From positions 1 to 50,004 of the forward strand of contig JACPZE010000041.1 of assembly GCA_016195685.1 (NCBI GenBank): a DNA stretch of 50,004 nt, read 5' to 3'. A model generated the notes under the pieces. That model saw only the letters and a program-made list of their open reading frames with translations, was not told the origin of the DNA and searched no databases. A program made the position numbers and the translations under genes. Every line of letters begins with the position of its first letter. Within the stretch, counting starts at the first letter, position 1. This stretch comes from Candidatus Gottesmanbacteria bacterium. Lineage in GTDB: Bacteria; Patescibacteriota; Microgenomatia; 2-02-FULL-39-11. Of the stretch, positions 16,051 through 39,815 are shown piece by piece.

Positions 16051-19000
16051 TTAATGCGCTGCTTCGTCTTCTTCACTTTTTGCCGTAAGCGCCCTGTAGA
16101 AATTCAGTATCGTAACTATCATAAGACTCGTACTGGCTATTTCCCAAGTGGCAAGCCATTTGGTGCCGCCGATAGCTTTCCCCAAATCATTACTGGTAAC
16201 ACCATAAAAAGAAACGCCCATTTTGGGTCCAAACCCTTCTTCTTCCATCTTGGCATAAGCAGCCAACCCGTGATACGGACGCTTAGGTAGTATCTGTTGA
16301 CCTCCCACCGCTTGAACGTATTGAAGAAGATCGTTGGGTCCCCAGGCATCAGCCCTATCTTTTCCTCTTATCATCTGCATAATTGAAGAGTCTGTAAAAA
16401 CACCATACACTGGACTTATAAACGGAATAGCCCATGCCAAATCTGCTTTTCTGTACATCATGGCAGTAGTATAGCTTATTCTGTAACAGTTTCTTATGGC
16501 TATATCCACAAAGTCACCCGAGAGAGCCGTCCACATCTCTTTTTGTTTTTTTACCAACTCATCCATATCTGGCCTGGCAACAAGCAGATTATTTACATAC
16601 TCTTCAAAAAGTTGAGCAAATTGTACATGAGAAGCCAGATCCCCTGCCCGGCGGACCGGATTTCTGTCTCCTAGTTGCCCTATATTTAAATACTCCCAAC
16701 CCATATCTTCGGTAGAAAAAAGCGTAGTTCTGTAGTTTCTATCCAAAAGCTTATTAGTGATACAGGAAGTTTCAAAAGTCAGTCTTCCTTTGGCATCATC
16801 TTTCACTTTTCCTTTCTCGTCTTTTTCTACGTCCGTCACTATTCTATCCACTTGGTTCCAATCGATTTTATGTACTCTTACTCCCCGTTCCCTTTTTATC
16901 TGATCCTCATTCCAACCTTCAACTCCCAATTGCTGATAATACCATTCTATGGATTTATCTCCCAAAAGAGCTGTTTTTACTTCTTCCCAATATCTTTTGG
17001 CGTTTTGCATCATTCTTGTTTTTTCCTCTTTTTGCAGGTCAGTTAAAGTTCCATCTTCGTTAATCAACCTTATATGCCTATCAAAATCTTCGCTTTGAAG
17101 CGCTTTGTTGTCTTTTATGGCTTGTTGAGAAATAGCTCCAACTGTAGCCTCAAGATCGGCTATATCGTCAAATTCCTTTTCCTCACCTGAAGTAGGCGTC
17201 CTCATGGAATCGATTTGTTTTCTGTCGATATGCAAAATTTTGGCAATTATTTCATCGCGTAGTTTAACTTTTTCTGTACCCCCGTACATACTCGTCTCAA
17301 CTTCTATATATCTGGCTGCCAGAAGCGGAGAGCGCATCGCCGATTCTAACCAAGTGCGGGCAAGATAAACCTTTTTCAGTTTCACAGCCAATTCTTTATA
17401 ACTTCCGGTTTCCTTATTTGCCACCCAATGATCATCCAGCAGCTGTCCGTATGTTTTTATCACGCCCTCGGGGTGCAAATTTTTCCCTACATCTCTCCAT
17501 AAGATTTCAAATGAGTCGTCAAAATCATTAGGATCTCTGTTTTGCACAGCCTCGTCAGCCAAAGCCGCTGATCGTGCCTTCAGATCATTTGAATTTTTGG
17601 CCCTATCTCTGTATTCTCTACGGTATCTTTTATAGAGTTCATTCCCTGCCTCGCTTTCAAATTTACGCCTGACTTGCCTGGCTGCCCAGTTTTGGGCGTT
17701 TATAAGCTTGATATTTGTCCCATAAGCCCGGTCGCGCTCCCAATCGTCAAAACTTATAGTTGAATCGCCCAGTCTCCACCCCGTCCATGGTCCCCACATG
17801 CCGGAATATTCAAAAGGGTTTTCTGCTTCTATCAGCCTGTTTTTAAAGGCCTCAGCCCCATCGTGCATACCTTTAGATTCAAGATAATCTATCGCTCCCT
17901 GGCTATCTCCTTTTGTGACAAATTTCACTATTTCCTTCATTATATCTGGATGCCAGTTGTCCCATTTACCCATAACCAGCATGTTGAAAAATGCATCATA
18001 GTATTCACCGCCCAGCCTGTACCTACTGTAATAATGGATCATCGGTGCTATATGACGGGCTATCCCTTCGTAAGGGATACTATTAAATTGTTTGGCTGAA
18101 AGACTAAATGACTGACCAGCTTCCCCCGTCTGTTCATAAGAAGTACCTGTCCCTCTGGAATGAGCAACAATTTCCAGAAGCCTTTGATCGATAAGAGAAA
18201 GGCCTTTGGCTTGTTTAAGCGCCGCAGCGATTTTTAAATCTCCTAATTTATCTCCGTATTTATTGCTCAATTTTGACTCAAATCCATATACCTCCTTCAT
18301 TGTAAAAGGCTTTGAATGATCACTTTGTTTTCTATTCCATACGCTAGGCTGTGGCAGACCATTACGGACTATGTCATCTTCTTTTATATGATAAAGTTGA
18401 CCCAAATTTATCATCTGGTCAAGATATGTACGGGCGACCTGATCCAATTTAGAATTACGGAGTTTGCCTTCTTCCCAGGAAAGCCATTCACGCGGAATAT
18501 ATCCGTCGTGGGTATCCCTTATGGACAAAAGAGCCATTTCATAAGCTCTTTTCCCCAACGCTACCATCGGGTCCTGGGATGCCGCATCGATATACATATT
18601 TAAAAAAAGGGCCGTTGAGCTTATAAATTCCTTCATATCCTGTGACGGATGCGCCGCCCAATAATCCATATCGTGAGATTGGAAAATAGTACTTTTGAGA
18701 ACATCGTAACGGGCTGCGTATTGTAGACCAACCCTGTTTCCTTCCGCATCTTTTGTGTTTCTGACGATATCCAAAAAAGCGTCCATATCTCCGGCAACGT
18801 ACAGAGTGTAGAGCTGATGCGACGATTCACTGCGCTGGTTATACAATATCGGCTCCAATATATGATAAAACCAATAATCCCTGTAGTCTGCATCTGTCTG
18901 AATCATAAACTCCACAGATCCTCGGCCCTGTGTTCTCATGGCATCGTAAAATCTAGCTTTGGTGCTTCCGGTTTTTTCCACCACCGAACGACCTAATTTC

Positions 19001-19887
19001 TCCCTGGCTGTAATAAGTTTTCTGTGTTTTTCTCCTGCTGCCCTATGTTCCCGGGCCATCATGCTAGGAGCGTTGACATCATCTGGCGATTCTGCTCCTT
19101 GAGTTTTGCCAAGTTGTTTTATTAATTCATCGTTTTTGCTTTCTAAAATTTCCTCTGCTTCAGTTAACAAATCATCCCTATCCTCTTTGTAATGACCGTT
19201 TTTAACCTCATTTAAAAGATCTATTTGTCCACGAGTCAAAATACCGTCTAAATCTCCAATCGCTTCATTTATCGTTTTTCCTTCTCCACTAACTGGTAAA
19301 TAATCATCTACCGTCTTTCCACCCCTTGCTTTCACCAATCTTTCATTAGCTTCTATAGCTTCCGGAGACATCCACTCCTTCATCTTTTCCAACCTTTCTA
19401 CTTCTTCAAGTCGTCTGTTTTTATTGTATTTTAGAATTAATGAGGCAAAACGATCTTGTAATTCTTCAAATGGCCCCCAAGCTCCAGTTTCGTTGTAATT
19501 GGGAAGACTACTAAGTATACCGGCTAATCTATCGTGGTGTTTCCGCAGCCAATCAACATCATGATATTTATGGGGATCTGGTGTGTGCAAAATATCTATA
19601 AGAAAATTCGCAAGAGGCCGGTGCCTGGTTAAAGTAGCCGCATCCGGCCTTAATCCTTTAAACAAATCATATCCTTGCTGCCCTTCTTGAATATTTTTAA
19701 GCTTATCAATTATGATATCCGCTGTTTCCCGATTCTCTCTTTCTTGTGGTGTCCTTCTTCTCTCCCGTTGTACCGCAGGCGGCTCAGCGGGTCTTCCTCG
19801 TCTAAAAATCCTGCGAATAATACCAAGAATAGATTGATTTTCAGGGCCATTATTCATATGAAATTTGTTTTTGGATGTTTTTACCAT
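16051..19887 (-). CDS. Giant 1278-residue protein of unknown function with a C-terminal membrane anchor
   Basis: I do not recognise this protein. It has a basic, Arg-rich N-terminus (GIIRRIFRRGRPAEPP...RERRR), then more than 1150 residues of soluble, charged, apparently mostly helical sequence. One hydrophobic segment occurs near the end (WLATWEIASTSLMIVTILNF, about residues 1243-1262) before an acidic tail (KSEEDEAAH). There is no signal peptide, so most of the protein should be cytoplasmic and tail-anchored. No Walker motif, protease motif or nuclease motif was found by eye. It lies tail to tail with the VirB6-like gene. The start at 19887 follows a good promoter. A second start at 19857 is possible. 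Confidence 0.85.
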   Translation of the reverse strand: MVKTSKNKFHMNNGPENQSILGIIRRIFRRGRPAEPPAVQRERRRTPQERENRETADIIIDKLKNIQEGQQGYDLFKGLRPDAATLTRHRPLANFLIDILHTPDPHKYHDVDWLRKHHDRLAGILSSLPNYNETGAWGPFEELQDRFASLILKYNKNRRLEEVERLEKMKEWMSPEAIEANERLVKARGGKTVDDYLPVSGEGKTINEAIGDLDGILTRGQIDLLNEVKNGHYKEDRDDLLTEAEEILESKNDELIKQLGKTQGAESPDDVNAPSMMAREHRAAGEKHRKLITAREKLGRSVVEKTGSTKARFYDAMRTQGRGSVEFMIQTDADYRDYWFYHILEPILYNQRSESSHQLYTLYVAGDMDAFLDIVRNTKDAEGNRVGLQYAARYDVLKSTIFQSHDMDYWAAHPSQDMKEFISSTALFLNMYIDAASQDPMVALGKRAYEMALLSIRDTHDGYIPREWLSWEEGKLRNSKLDQVARTYLDQMINLGQLYHIKEDDIVRNGLPQPSVWNRKQSDHSKPFTMKEVYGFESKLSNKYGDKLGDLKIAAALKQAKGLSLIDQRLLEIVAHSRGTGTSYEQTGEAGQSFSLSAKQFNSIPYEGIARHIAPMIHYYSRYRLGGEYYDAFFNMLVMGKWDNWHPDIMKEIVKFVTKGDSQGAIDYLESKGMHDGAEAFKNRLIEAENPFEYSGMWGPWTGWRLGDSTISFDDWERDRAYGTNIKLINAQNWAARQVRRKFESEAGNELYKRYRREYRDRAKNSNDLKARSAALADEAVQNRDPNDFDDSFEILWRDVGKNLHPEGVIKTYGQLLDDHWVANKETGSYKELAVKLKKVYLARTWLESAMRSPLLAARYIEVETSMYGGTEKVKLRDEIIAKILHIDRKQIDSMRTPTSGEEKEFDDIADLEATVGAISQQAIKDNKALQSEDFDRHIRLINEDGTLTDLQKEEKTRMMQNAKRYWEEVKTALLGDKSIEWYYQQLGVEGWNEDQIKRERGVRVHKIDWNQVDRIVTDVEKDEKGKVKDDAKGRLTFETSCITNKLLDRNYRTTLFSTEDMGWEYLNIGQLGDRNPVRRAGDLASHVQFAQLFEEYVNNLLVARPDMDELVKKQKEMWTALSGDFVDIAIRNCYRISYTTAMMYRKADLAWAIPFISPVYGVFTDSSIMQMIRGKDRADAWGPNDLLQYVQAVGGQQILPKRPYHGLAAYAKMEEEGFGPKMGVSFYGVTSNDLGKAIGGTKWLATWEIASTSLMIVTILNFYRALTAKSEEDEAAH

Positions 19888-33150: not shown

Positions 33151-36100
33151 ATGCCTGGCGGACTTTTTAATTTTTCCAAGTATCTTAAGAAAGGAAACCA
33201 AGGAGCTCTTTCTAATCAACAAGGAGGAGATACTAGTGGTCAGGGAGAATCTGTGTCTCAAAAAACGACTTATACTTCAACAAGTTCAGTTTCCAGTGGT
33301 CCTTATTCTGGTATAGGAAATCCGTCAGGAGGTGTTGCTTATTCCGGAATTGGCAATCCACCACATGGTCAAGCATATTCCGGTATTGGTAATCCCCCGG
33401 TTGCAAATATTTCTTCCGTTACCCAGACAACTCAGCAAACAAATAATGATATAAATAAGTCTAAATCTTCACCACCATCAGATCAGAAAGATAAAACAGC
33501 ATCATCAAAAACCCCAATAAATCAATCTGCAATTGATATGAAAAAACGGGTTGGTATGGATGTGTTATCCCGTCTTACACAAAGATCCAATCAGTCTCTA
33601 ATGACTGCTGTAAATAAAGTGAAAGAATTAAAATCGGGAATGGTAGACACAGAACATGTTTTTTGGGGACTTCTTCATGATAGTAGTATTTATCAGCTCA
33701 TATCTGAGTGCAAAGCCGTCCCTGCTGATATTCAAGTTGCTTTAGAGAAAACATTTAAAACGGGTAATGTGACTACTCCCCCGCAGTTTTCGCCCAGGGT
33801 AAAACGAGTCTTGGAATTATCTCTTTCTGCGGCAAAATCACTAGGATATGAGTTTATTTCTCCTGAACATATTTTACTTGCTCTTTCCCATGAAGGCGAG
33901 GGAATGGCTGCCCAGATTCTTGCGAAATTCAATCTAAAACCCGAAGTTTTAAATCAAAAAGTCACCGGTAAAAAAGAAATGGAAGGAAAAGAATCAGAAG
34001 AGAAAAGAAAGGCTTCATCTTTGGAGGAATACACAGAAGACCTGACAGCCAAAGCAGCAGCTGGTGAGCTAGATCCTGTAGTTGGTCGCAGTTGGGAAAT
34101 TGAGAGAATAATCCATATTTTATCAAGGCGTACTAAAAATAATCCATGTCTTATCGGAGATGCGGGGGTTGGGAAAACAGCAATCGTAGAAGGTCTTGCT
34201 TTCCGCATAGCCCACGGTGACGTTCCAGAAACATTATTACATAAAAGAATTCTATTACTTGATCTTATGAGCTTGATTGCCGGGGCAAAACACAGAGGTG
34301 ATTTTGAGGAGAGGCTGAAAAATCTCATAAAAGAGGTAAAGGCAGCCTCCGGAGGAATTATTCTTTTTATCGATGAACTTCATAATATGGTGGGTGCAGG
34401 AAGTGGAAGTGAAGGTACTATGGATGCATCCAACATCCTAAAACCGTCACTTGCGCGCGGTGAACTTCAGACAATAGGGACGACTACTGTGACAGAGTAT
34501 CGAAAATATATAGAAAAAGACCCGGCGCTTGAAAGAAGATTCCAACCGGTTTTAGTTTCTGAACCTACTGATGAAGTGGCGATTCAAATGTTGACGGCTC
34601 TTCGTGATAAATATGAGGCATTTCATCGGGTAAAGATTACTGATGAGGCTATTGAGGCGGCTGTTAAGCTTTCGCAGCGTTATATCGGGGATCGCTTTTT
34701 ACCTGATAAAGCGGTTGACCTTATAGATGAAGCGGCAGCATCAGTGAGACTTCCAGCGATTTCCCTTCCCGAAGATATTAAAAATGCCGAAAACAAGCTT
34801 AAACAACTGGATAGCGAGAAAAAAGAAGCTGAAAAAATTGGCGATAAAGTCCATGCAGATAATTGCACAAAAGAAATAGAAGAACTTCAGCAATCTTTGA
34901 AAGAATTAAACGAGCAGTACCAAGTGAAAAAATCAACAACAACCAATAGTGTTGGTACAGATGTTATTGCGGAGATAGTTTCCCGATGGACGAATATTCC
35001 GGTAAGTCGTCTTACCGAGAGTGAGTCCGCAAAGTTATTGGAATTGGAAAATACAATACACAAACGACTTATCGATCAAGAACCAGCAGTTGTAGCCGTG
35101 TCAGAGGCTGTAAGAAGAGGGAGAGCTGGACTTAAATCCAACAAAAGACCAATAGGGTCGTTTATCTTCATGGGGCCGACCGGAGTTGGAAAAACAGAGT
35201 TGGCCAAAACCCTCGCGGAACTTCTTTTTGGCAGCGAGGAAATGATGGTTCGTCTTGATATGACAGAATATATGGAAAAACATGAAGTTGCAAAACTAAT
35301 CGGTGCACCGCCGGGGTATGTAGGGTATGAAGAGGGAGGACAACTTACAGAAGCAGTGAGGCGCCATCCTTATTCCGTAGTTTTGCTTGATGAGATTGAG
35401 AAAGCTCATCCTGATGTTTTTAATATCCTTATTCAACTTCTTGATGACGGTCGTCTGACGGATAATAAAGGTCATACAATTTCATTTAAGAACACAATCG
35501 TTATTTGTACCTCCAACCTTGGAAGCGGCCTTATTCAAGATGAGATGACAGGATGGAAAGACACAAATAAAACACAAAATGCAAATAATAAAAACCAGAC
35601 GATTTTTAAAACATACATTATTTCCCCTACTGGACGGGAAATTATTACTCTTTCCGATAGGTATTGGGAGAAGGATCCGAAAGAAGACAAATGGAAAATA
35701 GCTAAAACAGTTGATTACTTTGCCGGATCAACGATAGCTCATGAAGAATCGGCTGAGGATTCTATTCAAAACAAAGAAGTACAATTTCCAGAAGGGGTTG
35801 ATACTCACTTGATAGCTGCTGATGGATCTGAAAGTATAACCTGGGAAGACAAACTCTGGTTTCGTACTTCAACTACAGCCAAAGAGTGGCAGTCGGTGCC
35901 TCTTTTGGTCTATCTTAAAGACAATGTTGTGATAAATGCCCTTCCGGATAAACCCGAAGAACAATTACCTACTGCCCATTTTGACTCCCACGCTCTTTCT
36001 TTGGTCAATTCGGAGATTATAACTCTTGGTAACCGCTTTTGGATGAGGGATAATTTGCAGACTAAAGATTGGACAACGGGCCTTTTGGAAGAATACTTTG

Positions 36101-37662
36101 CGGATTCAAAACTTACCCCGTCAAATCTTAAAGAACAGGATAAAAAGACAAAAACAGATCAATCTTTGGATGAGAAAAAAGATGATAAACAAATTGGTAA
36201 AAACAAAGATAAACAACCGGAGGAAAAACAGGCAAAAGACCAGATGAAGGCAAACAGCCAAGGAAACCTGATCCAAAACGAGGCAGACAAGAAAGAGGAA
36301 AAAGAGGATTTTCATTTTCCTCTGGATAAATGGGATATTCATTTATTTAAGCCAACTGGTGAAGAAATCATAATTGCAGAAGGTAACTATTTCCAAAGAA
36401 AAGATTCGGCATCCATGGAATGGACTGTTGGCAAAGTGAATGAGTTGTTTAAAGTTGTAGATGTAGCTTCTGACAAAAAAGAAGATGCTTTGCCGTTGGG
36501 TAATATTGATAAACAGGAGAAAAGTGAAGAGAAAAATGCAGCTGATGAGCAATTTAAAAAATTAGCCAACAAACTTCTGGATGAACTTCGCAAGTTTTTC
36601 AGGCCGGAGTTGTTAAACCGTTTTGACGAAGTAGTTGTCTTTAGGCCACTCACCCGCGATCATATGTTGGAGATAGTTGATTTACAAGTGAAAGCCTTAG
36701 CGAAACTTTTGCAGGAACAAAATATAGCCATCGATATCTCAAATGACGCCAAGACTTATCTGGCCGGTGTGGGATTTGATCCAATTTATGGTGCGAGGCC
36801 CCTTCGTCGTACCATGCAAAGGCTTATCGAAAATCAAATCTCCTCGCTCCTTATAAAAGGAGATTTAGCTGAGGGAGATACTATTTTAGTGGGGTATGAC
36901 GGCGGAGAGTTGGTTTTTGACGTTCACAAAGCGCGACTTCATAAGCCCACAAATGGGAAAGAAGATAAACCAGAAGCAAATCCCAATTTGAGGACTTTTA
37001 TCTGCAAAACCTGCAATAACCAGTGGCAGCAGGAGGTAAAGACAGGTGAAAAAGTAGTTTGTGTTAAATGCGGCGGACAAACAGTGGAAGATATTACTCC
37101 TTCTCCTCAGTCTAAAAACTTACGGTCATTTGTCTGCCAGGCTTGCAATAATCAATGGCAGCAGGAGGTAAAAACAGACGAAGTGATCACTTGCCCCAAA
37201 TGTACCAGCAATAAAGTAAATGATGTTACCCCCCCATCCCAACCACAAAATACTAGATCTTTTGTCTGCAAGACCTGCAAAAACCAGTGGCAGCAGGAGG
37301 TAAAAACAGGTGAAATTGCTACTTGTCCGAAATGCCAAAGTCAGTCTGTTGAAGACGTCACTGCTCCTCCGTCTTCAGAGCCAAAAATGAAAGATGGAGT
37401 AGTTGAATCTGCAAATAGTCAACAAACACAACAGGACGTATCCGGTCAAGTGAAAGATCCTAATGATCAAGGAACGGTTAATCCTCCTCCAAATGCAGAA
37501 TTACCTCAAGAACAAGCAACAACCGAACCACCTGTGGTAGATCAAACGCAGACCAACCCCTTGCAGGATTATTTTCCAACCGATGGGACGAATGCTTCCC
37601 CTACTCCATCCGACAATGTCCCCCCAGATGATAATGGGAATGCGACTACAACTACAACTTAA
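33151..37662 (+). CDS. Clp/Hsp100 AAA+ ATPase with a large insert in the second ATPase module and three C-terminal zinc ribbons
   Basis: The 1503-residue protein is about 650 residues longer than ClpB or ClpC. In order: a low-complexity N-terminus with three YSGIGNP repeats; a double Clp_N domain (~130-275); D1 with Walker A GDAGVGKT (336-343) and Walker B ILFIDE (to 409); a short ClpC-like coiled middle part (~540-605); and D2 with Walker A GPTGVGKT (675-682), Walker B VVLLDE (743-748) and sensor-1 TSN (787-789). About 325 extra residues then occur before [11 protein letters not shown] with the arginine finger Arg1157. The insert has four copies of a Trp/Tyr-rich ~40-residue unit (near 821, 885, 946, 1061). 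Three CxxC-CxxC ribbons start at 1281, 1325 and 1369, followed by a Pro/Thr/Gln tail. No ClpP-binding IGF/VGF loop is seen. Confidence 0.92.
36991..37377 (+). repeat. Three tandem zinc-ribbon-coding repeats in the clp gene
   Basis: Units of 132 bases (44 residues) start at 36991, 37123 and 37255. Each reads R(S/T)F(I/V)[12 protein letters not shown]...C..C. The DNA for QWQQEVKT (TGGCAGCAGGAGGTAAA) is identical in all three, which points to recent duplication. Each has two CxxC pairs (for unit one, Cys1285, 1288, 1304 and 1307). Confidence 0.85.
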
Positions 37663-38363
37663 CTGATTTTCCTTCGCAATATTTTTTGCCAAAGAGAAAG
37701 ATTTGTATAGAGTAAAAAGTAGATAGTTATACTAATTAATATGGCTATCAGTAGATAAAAGTCAACGGCAGAAAGAATAGAAGAAATCTTTCCGGTAAGG
37801 GATTTTTCAAAATATACCCTAACCCCTGTAATGTAAAGAGAAGTGGCGATAATAAGAGTCAATGGCCCTACTACAACCAAACTTTCCAAATCTTTTTTGC
37901 TGGAAAACATTGTAATTGAGGTTATAAAAAGAAGATAAAGACCGAGAAGAATTGATAATAGATGATTGTTAATAGTTGAAAGAGTGATATTTGATAAAAA
38001 GAATTTGCCGATAAAATAAACGATTATTAAACCGATTATCATAGGTGCTAGACCAATTAGGATTTGGCGAATTGGATCAACTGAAGCCAGTATTAATTTC
38101 CCTGCTTTTATATCTCCATTTTTCTCAATCGTTGGGATTATTGTCAGTTCCCCTGTAGGTACCCGAAGGATTGTAGCCATGAAGAAGTGTCCTAGTTCGT
38201 GGATGATAGTCCCGGGTAGAATTATGGTAGTTAGAATTCCTACCGAAAGGTTACGGTTCTTAGTGATAAGGTAACTTGATCTATAAATAACTATGGAAAT
38301 TTTTCTGGACAAAAGGAAAAGGAAAAAAAGTAAAAGAAAAAGGAAAACTAAATTTAAGAGCAT
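37659..38363 (-). CDS. Membrane zinc metalloprotease (HELGH, M50-like)
   Basis: The 234-residue polytopic protein has an N-terminal helix, then [20 protein letters not shown], an HExxH motif (His55, Glu56, His59) at the start of a hydrophobic segment as in intramembrane M50 proteases. Further helices lie at about 103-121, 134-152, 165-188 and 202-222. I do not see a clear NxxPxxxxDG third-ligand motif; Asp in ASVDPIRQ is a possible substitute. It overlaps the convergent clp gene by 4 bases and lies 2 bases after the 468-residue gene on its own strand, so those two are likely co-transcribed. Confidence 0.7.
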
Positions 38364-38365
38364 AG

Positions 38366-39772
38366 TTAATGACTCATTTGAGCATCTTGTCTTTGTTGTT
38401 CATCACCCGTTTCTTCCATTACGGCCAGAAGATTTTGGAGGAGTAGTAATATCATTACACCCTTGGTTATTGACATAAATCCCTCTTTGATATTCAGTCC
38501 TTGTTGATTAGGAGTAATTGTAAAAAGTAGCTTCATGGCTTCTTGTGCGTGTGGAGGTATGTCAACTCCATAAATCATGCCGCAAATAGGATCCAGATTG
38601 TCGATGAGGTATCGGCTTAATCCGAAATTCCCTTTCCTGTCTACACTAAAAATATCCCGAAATTCAGATAACTTAAATCCCATTGCTGAGGCAAATTGCG
38701 TTGCTTCCTGTGTGAATAAATTATTATCTGGTCTGCTATTGTTCGCAAGAAAATGCAGCCAGCTTTCTTCTTCTGCGTTAATTTCACCTTGTTCTGCTAG
38801 TCGGTTTATTAATTTGGTTCCACGTGAGGCGCTGGGGTCATAGTGGCCACCAGCGATATCTTGCAAATCTTTTTCTATTGCCTGAGACATAAGACTAGTC
38901 GTCCAAAGAATTCTTCCAGGTCTGATTGTTTTAGTAAATTCAAGAGGATATCTTCTTGAATTAAATCTGGAGTTTAGATGTTCCCTGACAGGATTATTGG
39001 AATTATACTCAGCTAGTCTTATTAATGGATTTATAGCGTCTTTTAATTCAGGGGTATAATTTTCCGTGCTTTTTAATTTATCGTGAGCAATAAAGCAATC
39101 TGTTGCCGCTTCAGTAAGTTCTGCTGTAAGCATACTTATAGCTTCAGTATTTCGTTGTCCCTCTGCTTGTTTCGAAGCTTCATCTAATGCCAGTTGAAGA
39201 CGATATCTTATCAAAACCATGTAGGAGAGAGTGGGATCGCCGATAATTTTTTTCGCAAATTCAGGATCACTAAGTTGTTCTATCGTCAGGCCGACAATTT
39301 TGCGGCAGAGGACGTCTGCCGCATTTTTTGAAATCGCTAATGATTCTTTTTCAAAGGCTATTTTATTTGCTTTGAGTTCTCCGTTAATCTTTTCCTGCAG
39401 CTGTGCTATTTGAATAAGCGACCTGTTTTCATCTGTCAAAAGTATGGGATCACGACCGCTTTTTGCTCTTTCATCATTAATATTTTTCAAAACGTCTTCT
39501 ACAGAAGCCTTCGGATCGATTGCCCCTCCCCATGCATATACTTGCTGGTGAGCGTTTTGCATAGTTAATTTATTAATCTTCTCAGCAGCTTGTGGTACAA
39601 CAATTTCACTACTTGTAGTTGGTTGGGCGCCGGATGCAGATAGTATTTCTGCTTTTGGAGCGGGTAATCCACTAGATACATTTTCGCCCGCACTTGGAGC
39701 GGCTGATTCCGGATTTGCGGCTGGTGTGGCAGTTGGCAAAACTGTTTCAGCGTTGGGTGGTAATCCCTCCAT
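38366..39772 (-). CDS. Unknown soluble helical protein with C-terminal membrane anchor
   Basis: I do not recognise this 468-residue protein. An Ala/Pro/Ser-rich N-terminal stretch (~60 residues, PTATPAANPESAAPSAGE) is followed by about 360 residues of charged helical sequence. One hydrophobic segment occurs near the end (MSITKGVMILLLLQNLLAVM), then the polar tail EETGDEQQRQDAQMSH. No signal peptide is present, so it should be a tail-anchored cytoplasmic protein like the giant protein at 16051, though I see no sequence similarity. The start at ATG 39772 is preferred over a GTG at 39787 because promoter-like boxes cover the latter. Confidence 0.75.
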   Translation of the reverse strand: MEGLPPNAETVLPTATPAANPESAAPSAGENVSSGLPAPKAEILSASGAQPTTSSEIVVPQAAEKINKLTMQNAHQQVYAWGGAIDPKASVEDVLKNINDERAKSGRDPILLTDENRSLIQIAQLQEKINGELKANKIAFEKESLAISKNAADVLCRKIVGLTIEQLSDPEFAKKIIGDPTLSYMVLIRYRLQLALDEASKQAEGQRNTEAISMLTAELTEAATDCFIAHDKLKSTENYTPELKDAINPLIRLAEYNSNNPVREHLNSRFNSRRYPLEFTKTIRPGRILWTTSLMSQAIEKDLQDIAGGHYDPSASRGTKLINRLAEQGEINAEEESWLHFLANNSRPDNNLFTQEATQFASAMGFKLSEFRDIFSVDRKGNFGLSRYLIDNLDPICGMIYGVDIPPHAQEAMKLLFTITPNQQGLNIKEGFMSITKGVMILLLLQNLLAVMEETGDEQQRQDAQMSH

Positions 39773-39785
39773 ATTGTATAATTTC

Positions 39786-39815
39786 ACGATACCACAGTTA
39801 GTTTATCTATTGCAA
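39786..39815 (-). promoter_or_regulatory. Possible promoter of the 468-residue protein gene
   Basis: On the minus strand TTGCAA (39810-39815), an 18-base spacer and TATCGT (39786-39791) lie 13 bases before ATG 39772. Both boxes match four of six consensus bases. The rest of the 190-base gap up to 39962 holds only a GCAGAA-TT-TTCTGC inverted repeat (39882-39895). Confidence 0.38.

Follow-up and report, generated by a model that had tools for sequence, protein, structure and literature searches.

A Clp ATPase and its gene neighbourhood

The window (the whole 50,004-nucleotide stretch of DNA analysed here) carries at 33151-37662, on the + strand like all features of this gene given below, an ORF for a Clp ATPase of 1503 aa, in which Clp_N, AAA D1, a short M domain, AAA D2, the D2-small domain, zinc ribbons and a disordered tail follow one another. 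Clp_N is matched by PF02861 in two stretches that represent its two repeats (33574-33963), and it is preceded by an N-terminal extension in which a motif of 16 protein letters occurs three times (33304-33399). AAA D1 with its lid (34018-34866; PF00004 and PF17871) has the conserved Walker A K342, Walker B E409 and pore Y450. The end of this lid is overlapped by the short ClpC-type M domain (34786-34932, limits approximate), which has the length of the ClpC M region and aligns with B. subtilis ClpC without gaps; the long M domain of the ClpB type is absent. AAA D2 is split by an inserted domain into the large domain (35068-35523; PF07724), with Walker A K681, pore Y723, Walker B E748 and sensor-1 N789, and the D2 end (36571-36900), which comprises a helix, the RPELLNR segment with R1157 and the D2-small lid (PF10431 at 36649-36891). 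Three tandem zinc-ribbon-like CxxC...CxxC units follow D2 (36991-37365; PF09723 in three stretches, below the cut-off), each with the protein pattern FxCxxC...NxWQQEVKTxE...CxKC; TRF reported no DNA array in this region, and most orthologues have one such unit or none, as judged by CxxC counts.

The best sequence relative of the protein in the PDB was B. subtilis ClpC (808 bits with phmmer, compared with 730 for ClpB and 517 for ClpA). None of the NCBIfam cut-offs for ClpB, ClpG, ClpK and ClpA was reached (e.g., the ClpB equivalog TIGR03346 scored 967.6 against a cut-off of 1232.1), and a model of D2 together with the insert retrieved the D2 domains of ClpC and ClpB in a structure search (Foldseek). 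Walker A and B, sensor-1, the arginine finger and the pore tyrosine are kept in both rings in all 46 aligned orthologues (with one gap, at the arginine finger), in agreement with the sequence-only reading of this DNA, which had considered both ATPase sites intact. By its sequence, the product is thus a ClpC-type double-AAA+ ATPase. No canonical ClpB was evident in the source genome, in which the only other PF10431 protein is a Clp of the membrane type. The second Clp-type ATPase of the genome (L041:3303-5747, 814 aa) has N-terminal hydrophobic segments in place of the start of Clp_N and an altered D1 Walker A (GEPGVARH).

The Clp gene is adjoined by a gene on the - strand (37659-38363) for an M50-like membrane metalloprotease, a candidate functional partner, with an invariant HExxH motif and weak matches to M50/M50B. 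It is followed by an ORF of 473 aa (38366-39787, upstream of the M50-like gene) that was matched neither in Pfam nor in NCBIfam, as was another ORF of the window (16051-19887, 1278 aa). In Gottesmanbacteria, PrgI, VirB4 and related genes of a type IV secretion system (T4SS) lie directly upstream of Clp, and this arrangement was found in the Gottesmanbacteria family only.

The domain inserted at the ClpP-docking loop

What makes a Clp unfoldase a protease is its ClpP-docking loop. In the window protein, TSN occupies residues 787-789 and RPELLNR residues 1151-1157, so that about 370 residues lie between them, compared with about 48 in B. subtilis ClpC. The phmmer match to B. subtilis ClpC ends just past the VGF loop and restarts directly after it ('MTGWKD' of the Clp ORF was aligned with 'YVGFNV' of ClpC, and the break follows soon after), and therefore the insert (residues 792-1140; 35524-36570), which is kept in relatives, sits in the ClpP-docking P-loop. 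The spacing and the position are those that had been proposed from the letters alone, as is the lack of an IGF motif: an intact phi-G-F motif is absent from the loop, and a degenerate xGW is left only in the window protein and a few relatives. In the cryo-EM structure of S. aureus ClpC, the P-loop, which spans residues 660-680 and has AGF at its tip, is a main contact to ClpP (PMC12521514).

Within the insert, a folded domain of about 290 residues is built of four homologous units of about 43 residues each. The four diverged units of about 40 residues that had been read near residues 821, 885, 946 and 1061 were recovered by profile HMMs and the predicted structure as four blades at residues 819-860 (35605-35730), 882-925 (35794-35925), 942-986 (35974-36108) and 1059-1101 (36325-36453). 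As a control for circularity, each HMM was made with the orthologues of one unit only, and these single-position HMMs still recovered the other positions of the window protein with iE values of 1e-6 to 4e-13 (the weakest pair was unit 1 to unit 2, iE 0.003), whereas the top score among 500 shuffled proteins was 3.6 bits. The homology among the four units, as measured on their sequences, is clearly above chance.

The linkers differ strongly from one another. The mean fraction of the top residue is 0.51-0.64 in the blades and 0.13-0.27 in the other linkers, compared with 0.86 in the 16-residue linker that joins blades 2 and 3 (residues 926-941; 35926-35973), which is the most conserved segment of the insert and nearly matches the D2 core (0.89); it is not universal, being absent from the loci L172, L178 and L179. 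The earlier description of Lys/Glu-rich coils between the units makes the linkers too much alike: those at residues 862-880 and 987-1058 are variable (the latter, Lys/Glu-rich and situated between blades 3 and 4 at 36109-36324, has a conservation of 0.13 and a pLDDT mostly below 50), in contrast to residues 926-941. Parts of blade 2 are also strongly conserved (RTSTTxKxW), and blade 2 together with the 926-941 linker would be the first places to seek a putative binding site.

The structure of the insert alone was predicted by AlphaFold2 with a pLDDT of 95-98 in the folded parts and a pTM of 0.78; when it was modelled inside D2 (46 homologues), the pLDDT was 92-97 over most of the blades. In the prediction, the units do not form separate modules on coils, as had been supposed, but the four blades of one propeller, each of four antiparallel strands and a short helix; the linker that joins blades 3 and 4 is disordered in it. 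The best ten Foldseek matches (E 3e-7 to 9e-6, probability 1.00) were hemopexin domains of matrix metalloproteinases (MMPs), serum hemopexin and a plant albumin of the hemopexin fold; the highest TMt (0.72) belonged to an MMP9 domain at rank 14, and other types of propellers (e.g., designed six-bladed ones) appeared from rank 11 down, mixed with more hemopexin folds. Pfam, PHROGs and the PDB contained no convincing sequence match for the insert. The Pfam hemopexin repeat PF00045 matched one of 17 members (E 0.052) and no insert across eight genomes, and the designed propellers SconeE and Cake were rejected as sequence kin of the unit profile, their best stretch aligning over 9-10 residues only. 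The insert is thus predicted to be a hemopexin-like four-bladed propeller, whether a homologue or an analogue of hemopexin. With the hemopexin folds (MMP hemopexin domains, hemopexin, vitronectin and plant albumins) it shares the predicted four blades, each of four strands and a short helix; it differs from them in its sequence (about 6-14% identity, Pfam hemopexin unmatched) and in its host, a cytosolic AAA+ protein.

Distribution, losses and relatives of the propeller

The insert is present at exactly the same site in 12 of the 14 other genomes of the same family and also in further families of the class, and 51 loci carrying it were found in GTDB, all of them in a Clp ATPase D2 and, where the lineage is named, in Gottesman-, Roizman- and Woesebacteria (Microgenomates). 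The search with a unit profile that the sequence-only reading had proposed matched 49 of 374 genomes of the class, in about 45 cases as an insert in Clp; across 380 phylum-wide genomes it matched only two members of the class and one weak single unit. The single-unit matches in three genomes (G259, G326 and G355) resemble chance. An assembly chimera, which that reading had named among the signs that would count against it, was rejected, as dozens of independent genomes have the insert at this site. A phage or mobile origin was likewise rejected, since IMG/VR contained no relative of the insert.

Close orthologues in the genomes G001 and G012 (with 84% identity across the D1 and D2 query) and G036 (75%) lack the domain, and therefore the ATPase does not need the propeller. 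The insert-less orthologues L132 and L133 (84% identical over this query) keep low-complexity linkers at the insert site. In the phylogenetic tree, L132 and L133 nest within the inserted Gottesmanbacteria clade (support values 97/89 and 98/94). A single gain of the insert was rejected, as the tree requires five label changes and has these two sequences nested inside; because of this nesting, loss is the simplest reading for them, and the propeller was probably lost in both. The positions of L134 and the paralogue L142 are uncertain because of their long branches. Within the family, the insert is about 50% identical, compared with more than 80% for the D1 and D2 query, i.e., it evolves faster than the ATPase.

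Units were also identified in predicted exported or membrane-anchored proteins (L173:3-2372, L173:4491-6779, L177:262-3225 and L174:7605-8375), and therefore the propeller family is not confined to Clp. They include an L173 protein of 790 aa that has a DUF2961 domain and four units, of which two match strongly (4e-8 and 2e-7), and an L177 protein (988 aa; three partial units) that contains pectate-lyase-like and dockerin domains. The Clp insert may have been derived from a domain of such proteins.

ClpP and the possible role of the propeller

ClpP (PF00574) was found neither in the source genome (92.9% complete) nor in the family, of which 15 genomes were searched. True ClpP (defined by E below 1e-40) occurs in 11 of the 374 genomes of the class, none of which has the propeller; the mutual exclusion is not significant in the class (Fisher P 0.37) because true ClpP is so rare in it. 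In one relative with true ClpP (G032; L143), ClpC has a YNLGFG loop and the insert is absent. Four insert- or unit-bearing genomes (G039, G126, G170 and G072) encode a ClpP-like protein that is divergent (E 1e-19 to 1e-21); in G072, the units are confined to a secreted protein. Lon is present in the source genome. The expectation that a folded domain on the side facing ClpP takes the place of the docking loop or interrupts it is supported, in genomes in which ClpP was not found.

We favour, with moderate confidence, the explanation that the protein is a ClpP-independent unfoldase of the ClpC type whose propellers form a ring at the exit face and serve as a binding platform. The hexameric unfoldase of these Microgenomates would work in the cell without ClpP, with a four-bladed propeller of predicted hemopexin-like fold attached at what would be the docking loop of each subunit. 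In the presumed hexamer, six propellers would be expected to surround the D2 pore at its exit, where they would block classical docking of ClpP and might bind a partner protein or an emerging or incoming substrate. Propellers of other proteins commonly bind proteins, and a platform for a partner or substrate would be the most plausible role of the propeller.

The propeller might instead target substrates or aggregates to a stand-alone disaggregase, in a role like that of the N1 domain of ClpG. This we consider unlikely: a ClpC architecture without ClpP, in a genome in which canonical ClpB was not evident, is consistent with it, and extra targeting domains have a precedent in ClpG (PMC8129007), but the insert lies on the exit side, opposite the D1 side at which substrates usually enter. 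Like the disaggregases ClpB and ClpG, the protein would be a ClpP-independent Hsp100 unfoldase, and ClpG is known for extra domains; unlike them, it misses the family cut-offs and the long M domain, and in ClpG the extra domain stands at the N-terminus.

It is quite unlikely, in our estimate, that Clp and its M50-like neighbour constitute a membrane-associated unfoldase-protease pair in which the exit-face propellers dock the protease. The M50-like gene is the neighbour of Clp at 26 loci, which belong to two lineages and show two orientations (convergent in Gottesmanbacteria, co-directional in Roizmanbacteria), and an M50-like protein occurs in 31 of the 45 genomes with the propeller compared with 103 of 329 others, a test that ignores shared ancestry. 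In the genome G241, a degenerate and truncated Clp D2 with four blades (L172:9664-10722; 353 aa, altered Walker B, D1 absent) directly overlaps the M50-like gene that follows it. However, this neighbour also stands beside the insert-less L132 and L133, no copy was detectable in 14 of the propeller genomes, and the M50-like gene occurs without the propeller in about 100 genomes. The assignment to M50 itself is based on motifs (HExxH invariant in 23 of 23 aligned sequences, SSKxD conserved) and on Pfam scores below the threshold (PF13398 in five of 23, best E 0.00056; the window member reached only 0.2, to PF02163). The bolder version, a new AAA+ protease architecture in which six propellers would dock the ClpC-type unfoldase to a membrane M50-like metalloprotease that replaces ClpP, unfolded substrates being fed to the membrane, seems highly improbable.

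That the insert is a passenger with little function, tolerated in a permissive surface loop, we regard as decidedly improbable. The probable independent losses, with low-complexity linkers left behind in L132 and L133, and the faster evolution of the insert would agree with it, but four blades with invariant residues are kept across several families, and a passenger would not keep the conserved 16-residue linker. Coupling of the ATPase to the adjacent T4SS, a link that had been suggested from the gene order (the T4SS genes lie directly upstream in Gottesmanbacteria), is hardly credible, as the same genes flank the insert-less L132 and L133 and none were found around the insert-bearing Roizmanbacteria orthologues in the stretches examined.

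ClpC and ClpIb are among the known systems nearest to the protein. With B. subtilis ClpC/MecB and S. aureus ClpC it shares Clp_N, a pair of AAA rings whose motifs are intact and a short M domain; unlike them, it has a propeller of about 290 residues in place of the phi-G-F loop, zinc ribbons at the C-terminus and a genome in which no ClpP was found. ClpIb of Actinomycetota also has a ClpC-like short M domain, lacks the LGF motif and is presumed to be ClpP-independent (PMC10149685), the same combination as here, but its loop has about five residues and no inserted domain, compared with 349 residues in the loop of the window protein. A literature search found no paper describing a propeller at a Clp docking loop.

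The Clp-propeller architecture is real and conserved, and its function is inferred. A docking loop that is consistently occupied by a folded propeller in a large, mostly ClpP-less lineage of uncultured, ultra-small bacteria would show how a motor can be repurposed. The propeller provides a defined domain with which partners can be tested, and its family links predicted secreted proteins with an intracellular machine.
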